64,000 nt of DNA from Phycisphaerae bacterium (GTDB lineage Bacteria; Planctomycetota; Phycisphaerae; UBA1845; JAFGLZ01): assembly GCA_016927755.1 (NCBI GenBank), contig JAFGLZ010000265.1:1-64000 (forward strand), given 5' to 3'. Positions 51,428 to 55,996 of the stretch are shown here, one piece after another (the stretch's first letter is position 1; every line of letters starts with the position of its first letter). Position numbers and translations under genes: made by a program. A model generated the notes under the pieces. That model had not been told where the DNA came from. It saw nothing but the letters and a program-made list of their open reading frames with translations, and did no database searches.

Positions 51428-51511
51428 GGGGATGTGGCGGAACTGGCAGACGCGCAGGCTTCAGGTGCCTGTTGGGGCAACCCAGTGGAGGTTCGAGTCC
51501 TCTCATCCCCA
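51428..51511 (+). tRNA. tRNA-Leu (CAG)
   Basis: Acceptor GGGGATG/CATCCCC, anticodon stem-loop caggc-ttCAGgt-gcctg, long variable arm, T-arm gaggTTCGAGTcctc, discriminator A; no encoded CCA. Confidence 0.96.
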
Positions 51512-52715: not shown

Positions 52716-53984
52716 ATGAACGTTCGGAAGATCGCAGCCGTGGCGCAGCGCGAATACGCTCAGACGGTCAAGACGAAGGCCTTTCTGATCGGAGCGATCG
52801 TCATGCCGCTCGTGATCGTCGTTCTGATCGGACTGTCGATGAAGTTCCAGATCGACCAGGAGAGCAAGGTAGACCCCATCGAACTGGCCGTGGTCGATCG
52901 AACTCACCGCGTGGCCGATTGTCTGGTGAAGCTGGCCGCGGGGTATAACGCCGACAACGGCGTGCCGCCGGTGAACATTCATGTAGAGCCGGGGACGAGC
53001 GATGCCGGCGACGCCCTCGACTCGCTCAAACGGCGCGTGGACAAGGACGAGTTCTTTGCGACGATCTGCATCCCGGCCGACGTCATCGAGGCCGAGGACA
53101 CGCCCTGCATCGTGTACACTCGTGCGGGATCGTTCGGCTCTCGTCGGCATACGGTGCAGTGGCTTGTCGGCGAGGCCGTCAAGTGCGTCCGGATCGCCGA
53201 GGCGAATCTCGATTTCCGGCAGGTCATGCACGCGACGCGAGGCGTTCGGTTCGAGCAGCGCGACGTCAACGGGAAGCCAAAAGGCGAGATGGAGGAAGTC
53301 ACGGGCGTGATGACGCCGCTGGCCTTCGCGATGCTGCTCTTCGTAGGCGTCTTCGGCGTGAGTCAGTCTCTGCTGACGAGCCTGATCGAGGAAAAGGGCT
53401 CGCGCATCGTTGAGGTGCTGTTGTCCGCGCTGAGCCCCTTCGAACTCATGTCCGGCAAGATCCTGGGGATCGCGGGGGTCGGGTTCACGCTCGTGCTCAT
53501 ATGGGCCACGGCCGCTTACGGGGCCGCGACCTGGAAAGGCCTCGATGGACTGCTGCGGATCGACAGTGTCGGGCAGTTCCTTCTGTACTACGTCCTGGGG
53601 TTCCTGCTGTTTTCCTCGATGCTGGCGGCGCTCGGGTCGGCGTGCAACTCGCTGAAGGAGGCTCAGAGCCTCATGGGGCCTCTGAGCATCGTGATTGTCA
53701 TCCCCCTGGCGTGCTGGCTCTACATCGTCCGCAATCCGGACTCGCTGGCGAGTACGGTACTGAGCTTCATACCGCCGATCACGCCGCTGGTCATGATCCT
53801 CCGAACGGCTTCGCCGGTGAGCACGGGCCTACCGCTCTGGCAGCAGATCGGCGCTCCGATCTGGCTGGCAGCGTGGGTGGTCGTCACCATCTGGGCCGCG
53901 TCCAGGATCTTCCGCGTCGGCATCCTGCTCTACGGCAAGCCGCCCGGGCTGTTCGAGCTCGTGAAGTGGATCGGGCGTCGGTAG
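52716..53984 (+). CDS. ABC-2 type transporter permease (NatB-like)
   Basis: MNVRKIAAVAQREYAQTVKTKAFLIGAIVMPLVIVVLIGL; ALSPFELMSGKILGIAGVGFT; six TM pattern; adjacent ATPase. Confidence 0.93.
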   Translation: MNVRKIAAVAQREYAQTVKTKAFLIGAIVMPLVIVVLIGLSMKFQIDQESKVDPIELAVVDRTHRVADCLVKLAAGYNADNGVPPVNIHVEPGTSDAGDALDSLKRRVDKDEFFATICIPADVIEAEDTPCIVYTRAGSFGSRRHTVQWLVGEAVKCVRIAEANLDFRQVMHATRGVRFEQRDVNGKPKGEMEEVTGVMTPLAFAMLLFVGVFGVSQSLLTSLIEEKGSRIVEVLLSALSPFELMSGKILGIAGVGFTLVLIWATAAYGAATWKGLDGLLRIDSVGQFLLYYVLGFLLFSSMLAALGSACNSLKEAQSLMGPLSIVIVIPLACWLYIVRNPDSLASTVLSFIPPITPLVMILRTASPVSTGLPLWQQIGAPIWLAAWVVVTIWAASRIFRVGILLYGKPPGLFELVKWIGRR

Positions 53985-54073
53985 GGGACTCGCCGGTCAG
54001 CAAGCCGGCAAGCCACCGTACGGGCCAGGTCCTGTCCGCAAGCATTTCGGGGAGGGGAAGCCTGAGTTAGCGG

Positions 54074-54101
54074 TTGATTGATCCGATGAGTATGGTACAC
54101 T
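54074..54101 (+). promoter_or_regulatory. candidate sigma-70 promoter upstream of cimA leader (TTGATT - 16 bp - TACACT, TGG extended -10)
   Basis: ttgattgatccgatgagtatggtacact. Confidence 0.55.
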
Positions 54102-54128
54102 ATGCGTAGTTGTCTGCGGAGCAGTCCC

Positions 54129-54227
54129 ATGGTCCTGTCGAATGATACGCTCGTCGCGTGCTGCCCGATATGCCCGGGTGGGGGTACGTACGGGGCGATT
54201 ATCATTATTCGGGAGGAGACCGGGTAG
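54129..54227 (+). CDS. Ile-rich attenuator leader peptide (32 aa) upstream of cimA
   Basis: ATG GTC CTG TCG AAT GAT ACG CTC GTC GCG TGC TGC CCG ATA TGC CCG GGT GGG GGT ACG TAC GGG GCG ATT ATC ATT ATT CGG GAG GAG ACC GGG TAG = MVLSNDTLVACCPICPGGGTYGAIIIIREETG*. Confidence 0.8.
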   Translation: MVLSNDTLVACCPICPGGGTYGAIIIIREETG

Positions 54228-54285
54228 GGCTGTGGCCGAGCACGCGAGATTCGACAGCCCTGCCCGATCGTGGCAGGGCTTTTTT
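54223..54285 (+). promoter_or_regulatory. transcription attenuator: antiterminator (54223-54233 with 54254-54264) mutually exclusive with terminator (54256-54285)
   Basis: GGTAGGGCTGT pairs with ACAGCCCTGCC (11 bp incl. one G-U); AGCCCTGCC pairs with GGCAGGGCT followed by T-tract. Confidence 0.8.
54256..54285 (+). terminator. Rho-independent terminator within cimA leader
   Basis: agccctgcc-cgatcgt-ggcagggct-ttttt. Confidence 0.92.
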
Positions 54286-54352
54286 GATTGGGTTCGGCTC
54301 GGTTGAGCGATCCGAACACGGACCGAGATCTTCGCCGTAAGGGGAGACGTTC

Positions 54353-55996
54353 ATGGGATTCCCCCAGACAAGGCGCGTCGTGTTGTACGACACGACGTTG
54401 CGGGACGGGATGCAGGGCGAAGGCGTGGCCCTTTCCCTGGGCGACAAGCTGGGGATCGCTCGTCGGCTCGACGAGTTGGGGATGGACTACATCGAGGGCG
54501 GGTATCCCCTGAGCAACCCGAAGGATGCCGAGTTCTTTCAGGAGATGAGGCGCAATCCGCTATCGCATGCTCGCCTGACGGCCTTCGGGATGACTCGCAA
54601 GAAGGGCCAGACTGCCGCGGAAGACGTGGGACTTGGCGCTCTCTTGTCGGCGGAGACGCCTGCCGTCGCGATCGTCGGCAAGACGTGGGAGCTGCACGTT
54701 CGGGACGTCCTGGGCGTGACGCCGGAGGAGAACCTGGCGATGATCGCCGACTCGATCGCCCACTGTGCTGCGGCCGGGCGAGAGGTCATCTATGACGCCG
54801 AGCACTTCTTCGACGGCTACGCGGCGAACCCCGAATACGCCAGACGAACGCTTCTGGCGGCGCAGGAAGCCGGCGCGTCCTGCATCGTGCTGTGTGACAC
54901 GAACGGCGGGTCCCTCCCGGAGCGCATCGTCGAGTTCGTCGAGGCCGTCCGATCGGACCTGTCGGTACCGTTGGGGATCCATCCGCACAACGACGGCGGC
55001 CTTGCGGTGTCCAATGCTATCAGCGCCGTCAAGCACGGCGTGTATCACGTGCAGGGCACCATTAACGGCATCGGCGAGCGGTGCGGCAACGTGGATCTGA
55101 CCACCGTGGCGGCAAACCTCACACTCAAGCTGGGGTACGACGTGTTGGTCCCCGGGGCTCTGGAGGGGCTCACCGAGGTGAGCCGGTACGTGGACGAAAT
55201 GGCTAATCTCGTGCCGAGGGAGAATCAGCCCTACGTCGGATCGGGCGCTTTCGCGCACAAGGGCGGCATGCACGTCCATGCGGTGCAGAAGGTCGCTTCG
55301 AGCTACGAGCACGTGGACCCGGTTCGCGTCGGGAACCGTCGTCGCATCCTGATCAGCGAGTTGAGCGGGGCGAGCACGGTTGCGGCCAAGATCGGCAAGA
55401 AGTTCGGCATCGCCGAGGATCGACCACTGTTGCGCCGTGTCCTGGAACGCGTGCAGGAGCGGGAGAACGAGGGGTACACGTTCGAGGCGGCCGAGGCGAG
55501 CTTCGAGCTGATCTGCCGCAAGGAAATGGGCAGGTACCACCCGTTCTGGGAGTTGGACCACTACCGCGCGGTGATCCTCAACGTTCACGGACAGATCCAG
55601 ACGACCGAGGCGATCGTGAAGCTGCGGATCGACGGGGTCCAAGAGCACCAGGTGGCCGAGGGCGACGGACCGGTCGACGCTCTGGCGGGCGCGCTCCTAC
55701 GGGCGCTTCGCCCGCGTTATCCGCACGTCGATCGGGTTCGGCTCGTCGACTACAAGGTTCGGGTCACGAATCCTCGCGAGGCCACCGCCGCCCGGGTCCG
55801 CGTGACGATCCAGTTCCGGGACGACGAAAGCCACGAGGTCTACGGAACGGTGGGCGTGAGCGAGAATATCATAGAAGCGTCGTGGGACGCCCTGGTGGAC
55901 GGCATAGAGTACAAGCTCCTCCAAGTCGAAGAGGCGCTCGATACCGGCGTCGGCGTCCGTCGGGCCGGCGCCGAGGGGGAGGGTTTTGACGCGTGA
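54353..55996 (+). CDS. cimA: (R)-citramalate synthase
   Basis: VVLYDTTLRDGMQGEGVALSLGDKLGIARRLDELGMDYIEGGYPLSNPKDAEFF; GIHPHNDGGLAVSNAISAVKHGVYHVQGTINGIGERCGNVDL; FAHKGGMHVHAVQKVASSYEHV; regulatory C-terminus. Confidence 0.95.
   Translation: MGFPQTRRVVLYDTTLRDGMQGEGVALSLGDKLGIARRLDELGMDYIEGGYPLSNPKDAEFFQEMRRNPLSHARLTAFGMTRKKGQTAAEDVGLGALLSAETPAVAIVGKTWELHVRDVLGVTPEENLAMIADSIAHCAAAGREVIYDAEHFFDGYAANPEYARRTLLAAQEAGASCIVLCDTNGGSLPERIVEFVEAVRSDLSVPLGIHPHNDGGLAVSNAISAVKHGVYHVQGTINGIGERCGNVDLTTVAANLTLKLGYDVLVPGALEGLTEVSRYVDEMANLVPRENQPYVGSGAFAHKGGMHVHAVQKVASSYEHVDPVRVGNRRRILISELSGASTVAAKIGKKFGIAEDRPLLRRVLERVQERENEGYTFEAAEASFELICRKEMGRYHPFWELDHYRAVILNVHGQIQTTEAIVKLRIDGVQEHQVAEGDGPVDALAGALLRALRPRYPHVDRVRLVDYKVRVTNPREATAARVRVTIQFRDDESHEVYGTVGVSENIIEASWDALVDGIEYKLLQVEEALDTGVGVRRAGAEGEGFDA

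Follow-up and report, generated by a model that had tools for sequence, protein, structure and literature searches.

A predicted isoleucine-responsive transcription attenuator in front of cimA, with a leucine counterpart on leuA, in Planctomycetota

A short open reading frame with a run of isoleucine codons near its stop, closely followed by a hairpin with a T-tract, lies in front of the citramalate synthase gene cimA in the contig JAFGLZ010000265.1 of a Phycisphaerae bacterium. Does this arrangement control cimA according to the supply of isoleucine, or did the ORF and the hairpin come together by chance or for another purpose? The original prediction, made within the window (the whole stretch of 64,000 nucleotides analysed), read the locus as an Ile attenuator. 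The features on which the question turns are given below, in window coordinates and as read from the sequence unless another basis is named.

54074 to 54101, + strand: promoter-like TTGATT-N16-TACACT, weak (8/12)
54118 to 54121, + strand: Shine-Dalgarno-like GGAG, 7 nt upstream of the leader start codon
54129 to 54227, + strand: leader ORF MVLSNDTLVACCPICPGGGTYGAIIIIREETG, with Ile-rich leaders at the corresponding place in many relatives
54198 to 54209, + strand: Ile codon run ATT ATC ATT ATT, putatively regulatory, codons -6 to -9 from the end of the leader
54221 to 54233, + strand: segment 2, 5' arm of the predicted antiterminator, containing the leader stop at 54225-54227
54254 to 54266, + strand: segment 3, 3' arm of the predicted antiterminator and left arm of the terminator (sequence and pairing tests)
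54256 to 54280, + strand: predicted intrinsic terminator hairpin (segments 3:4), 9 bp with a loop of 7 (sequence and terminator scan)
54280 to 54285, + strand: T-tract, predicted premature 3' end
54353 to 55996, + strand: cimA, citramalate synthase (NCBIfam TIGR00977)

The leader ORF runs over 32 codons from an ATG at 54129 to a TAG stop at 54225-54227 and its product ends in GAIIIIREETG. An additional Ile codon, ATA, is found upstream of the run at 54168-54170. ORF, run and ATA all lie where they had been predicted. A second in-frame ATG at 54102 directly follows the -10-like hexamer; the start at 54129, with GGAG upstream, is the better candidate. The promoter that had been proposed is present as a motif, but it is weak: 8 of 12 positions fit the consensus, under the scanner threshold of 9/12.

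Downstream of the run, GGTAGGGCTGT (54223-54233), which encloses the TAG stop as had been claimed, pairs with ACAGCCCTGCC (54254-54264) over 11 bp including one G.U pair at 54225:54262. This helix can be extended to 13 bp (54221-54233 with 54254-54266). Folded alone, the 2:3 helix has a predicted energy of -25.4 kcal/mol and the 3:4 terminator of -20.1 kcal/mol. The sequence check places the antiterminator, the 9-bp terminator and the T-tract at the coordinates originally given for them. The terminator is the sole terminator-like site found in 53985-54355, where shuffled sequences average 0.3. When the upstream region was dinucleotide-shuffled 4000 times, an ORF with four consecutive Ile codons arose once, and in no shuffle did one stand in register with a terminator.

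This organization suggests ribosome-mediated transcription attenuation of cimA in response to charged tRNA-Ile, a reading that we hold to be very probable. Under a shortage of Ile-tRNA, a ribosome on the leader would stall at the Ile run and leave segment 2 free to pair with segment 3; the terminator would then not form and RNA polymerase would continue into cimA. With ample Ile-tRNA, the ribosome would reach the stop inside segment 2 and cover this segment, allowing the 3:4 terminator to form. The elements, their conservation, spacing and covariation, and the fit of amino acid to gene are observed; we infer that stalling and readthrough would take place and that the signal would be the charged tRNA and not the free amino acid. 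An end-product codon run near the stop of a short leader ORF, an intrinsic terminator separating this ORF from the gene, and a regulatory amino acid that is the product of the pathway (Ile on cimA, Leu on leuA) are all found. The placement is also that of an attenuator: a ribosome at the stop would mask the antiterminator, one at the codon run would not.

The gene downstream is citramalate synthase, as had been stated, since its product scores 641 bits against the cutoff of 450 of the equivalog model TIGR00977 for CimA. The closest cimA relatives of this genome are in Planctomycetota. In the 9.25-Mb draft genome, estimated to be 98.7% complete with 7.5% contamination, a model search gave no threonine deaminase near the cutoff (best 57.6 bits versus 378.75), and citramalate is therefore probably its route to isoleucine. 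In the planctomycete Kuenenia stuttgartiensis, 13C labelling favoured the citramalate route over the threonine route (PMC8027424). About 90 nt after cimA, on the same strand, lies hflX (window 56087-57451), which could be co-transcribed with it. A conserved cimA-hflX operon under the attenuator was considered and rejected: an HflX-like gene stands beside cimA only in the window's own locus. The window also carries a bacterial large SRP RNA at 15728-16009 (Rfam RF01854, 113 bits) and a tRNA gene at 51428-51511 (Rfam RF00005, 52 bits).

Comparison with relatives supports the attenuator. Regions upstream of cimA were gathered from named genomes and from genomes sampled over the order and the phylum; 199 distinct regions are of Planctomycetota and 38 belong to other phyla. 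Strong terminators precede cimA in 50% of the former, in 5% of the latter and in 6.5% of shuffles. All 20 amino acids were then scored in ORFs ending near the stem, at the 95 terminator-bearing Planctomycetota loci with enough upstream sequence. Ile is enriched with z=27 relative to shuffled sequences, followed by Val (z=8.8) and Met (z=5.1), Leu not being enriched (z=1.1); these scores treat loci as independent, compared without a tree, and kinship among loci inflates them. At least four Ile within 9 codons are found at 61% of the 95 loci versus 1.2% after shuffling. Among the genomes sampled, the signal is seen in ten families or more, with leaders like MTTANASIIAIAIIITYPM of strain ZRK32 (L005) and those ending in SSIIIICEITDSQ (Gimesia, L009) or SGIIIAIIIGITG (L091). 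The Ile codons peak at positions -6 to -13 before the stop in 75 distinct leaders, left from 82 after deduplication by ending, a step applied to this position profile only. The distance from leader stop to terminator stem has a median of 30 nt (interquartile range 27-34). An SD-like 4-mer stands before a possible start in only 40 of 82 leaders. Relatives that kept the hairpin and lost the Ile run or the ORF would speak against the prediction; the Planctomycetota present the opposite, the Ile-rich leader, its stop about 30 nt before a terminator and the antiterminator recurring together in sequences that are otherwise unalike. The cimA genes sampled from other phyla are without this arrangement.

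Among the Ile codons of the leaders ATT outnumbers ATC (229 versus 107), whereas at these loci cimA itself has ATC 1111 times and ATT 285 times; the response may be sharpened by this choice of the rarer codon. Val is found besides Ile in several leaders (e.g. L003, L018, L029, L167), some runs being mixed or mostly Val; some cimA leaders may sense Val too, or such runs may be weakened Ile runs. The element is frequent in families f39 (22/26), f81 (8/9), f12 (5/7) and f11 (3/3). In the order's family f5 it is recognized by the strict rule in 6 of 12 loci, terminators being present in 12/12, and it was not found in f40 (0/21) and f62 (0/7). It is lineage-specific and not universal, roughly one in two cimA genes sampled from Planctomycetota lacking it.

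The antiterminator recurs as well. For 82 leaders, pairing between the stretch close to the stop and the terminator's left arm is better than in shuffled sequences (median rank 0.01), and in 70 of them this stretch, segment 2, overlaps the leader stop codon. Clustering of terminator arms by common 6-mers was uninformative, most arms chaining into one class, and a swap test was used instead. Segment 2 paired with its own arm gives a mean of -13.2 kcal/mol, permuted arms give -9.6 kcal/mol and the best of 2000 permutations reaches -10.6 kcal/mol. Own arms pair better than swapped ones, which means that segment 2 and segments 3 and 4 have changed in concert. Conservation of a 1:2 pause hairpin across the group is not supported: pairing is possible in the window, but over the 82 loci it is no better than in shuffles (median rank 0.33).

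The window's own genome offers another instance of the design, on leuA. A Leu leader, MPMSGTHRSSLVAPGLGLLLRLRLHSGA, is found upstream of this gene (L151:1101-1270, G000:C157); its TAG stop lies in CATAGGGCTCC, a segment that pairs with GGAGCCCTA in the terminator before leuA. Its sequence identifies this element as a putative leucine attenuator of the same design as that on cimA. Within the phylum, 29 of 70 leuA upstream regions have a strong terminator. In leaders at terminator-bearing leuA loci Leu is enriched with z=16 and Ile is not (z=0.3), to be compared with the Ile z=27 of cimA leaders, all values again raised by kinship among loci. The codon run therefore follows the pathway of the gene, and the Ile leader suits that of cimA as had been proposed. 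No comparable element was recognized by eye in the regions upstream of ilvB (L144) and hisG (L301) of the same genome.

Among other explanations, the one that fares best, although we regard it as very unlikely, is a leader acting as a TnaC-like arrest peptide whose signal is free isoleucine or some other ligand in place of charged tRNA. A peptide arrested at those Ile codons would give an equivalent switch. Arrest peptides, however, usually need specific residues, and cimA leader peptides have no common sequence beyond the Ile run, which is what is expected if the codons alone matter. The Leu codons set in a matching layout in leuA leaders argue in the same direction. Slightly less probable still is a leader acting on the translation of cimA, by sequestration of its start site or by reinitiation. 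Half of the Planctomycetota loci lack a strong terminator and a few of these have Ile-rich ORFs upstream of cimA nonetheless, as such a role could predict. In the window, however, a classical terminator with a T-tract separates leader and cimA, and among relatives the distance from terminator to cimA start ranges from 12 to 269 nt, which is unsuited to either form of translational control.

The hairpin could also be an ordinary terminator belonging to the ABC-permease gene upstream, which ends at 53984 on the same strand, with the Ile run a product of chance; terminators downstream of genes are common. This we consider highly improbable because the hairpin stands 270 nt beyond the end of that gene, the Ile run keeps its register with the terminator in unlike sequences (the kinship-inflated z=27 above), the antiterminator overlaps the leader stop, and shuffling never reproduced the joint arrangement. 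A T-box binding uncharged tRNA, as controls Ile genes in other phyla, or another ligand-binding riboswitch is the least credible of all, Rfam giving no match at the gathering level, its T-box model not recognizing a core at the locus and the search at E up to 1 returning nothing but a weak, chance-level antisense match (22.3 bits versus a gathering score of 70). We thus privilege transcription attenuation through translation of the Ile leader, and the sequence evidence supports the original prediction of this function.

A leader-peptide attenuator can work only when a ribosome closely trails RNA polymerase, and its retention would therefore imply coupled transcription and translation. This touches on Gemmata, for which a spatial separation of the two processes was claimed in 2014, as cited in passages of PMC6212462 and PMC5394234. 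Gemmata sp. IIL30 (L029) has an Ile/Val-rich cimA leader ending in VAIIATVVVITTG, with terminator and antiterminator. On balance we favour the view that several Planctomycetota lineages, Gemmata included, carry compact three-segment attenuators for Ile on cimA and Leu on leuA, with the stop inside the antiterminator, and that they couple transcription to translation. If functional in Gemmata, the element would argue against strict separation, an argument drawn from one named Gemmata locus, and the separation claim becomes testable with one reporter. The Ile leader also offers a criterion, readable from sequence, to tell which route to isoleucine is under Ile control in a given planctomycete.

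Leader-peptide, ribosome-mediated attenuation is a textbook mechanism. In the enterobacterial ilvGMEDA, ilvBN and leuABCD operons, a short ORF with a run of branched-chain amino acid codons and mutually exclusive 2:3 and 3:4 hairpins, the latter an intrinsic terminator, precede the genes. The planctomycete element shares the codon-run ORF, the exclusive hairpins and the terminator. It differs in the gene (cimA), in a leader specific for Ile, in the phylum, in a leader stop placed inside segment 2 and in a 1:2 hairpin whose conservation is not supported. No description of attenuation on cimA or in Planctomycetota was found in the literature searched, in agreement with what the original prediction supposed; subscription papers (Lopatovskaya et al. 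2010) lay outside this search and absence is thus not proven. The main text of a broad attenuator survey (PMC2965389) makes no mention of planctomycetes or cimA. The His leader peptides of Firmicute hisS and hisZ described in that text are alike in being attenuators outside Proteobacteria and Actinobacteria, and differ in amino acid, gene and phylum. Short ORFs with Ile, Val or Leu runs also precede branched-chain amino acid genes in actinobacteria, where ilvB leader ORFs overlap terminator hairpins and the LEU element of leuA forms a pseudoknot engaging the SD, without classical attenuation (PMC1262725). In the planctomycetes, in contrast, terminator and antiterminator are clear, and some 30 nt separate the end of the ORF from the stem. 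Leader-peptide attenuation, of which we found no description in this phylum or on this gene, would hence extend to both. The mechanism itself is known; novelty appears to lie in the gene, in the phylum and in the pairing of an Ile with a Leu system.
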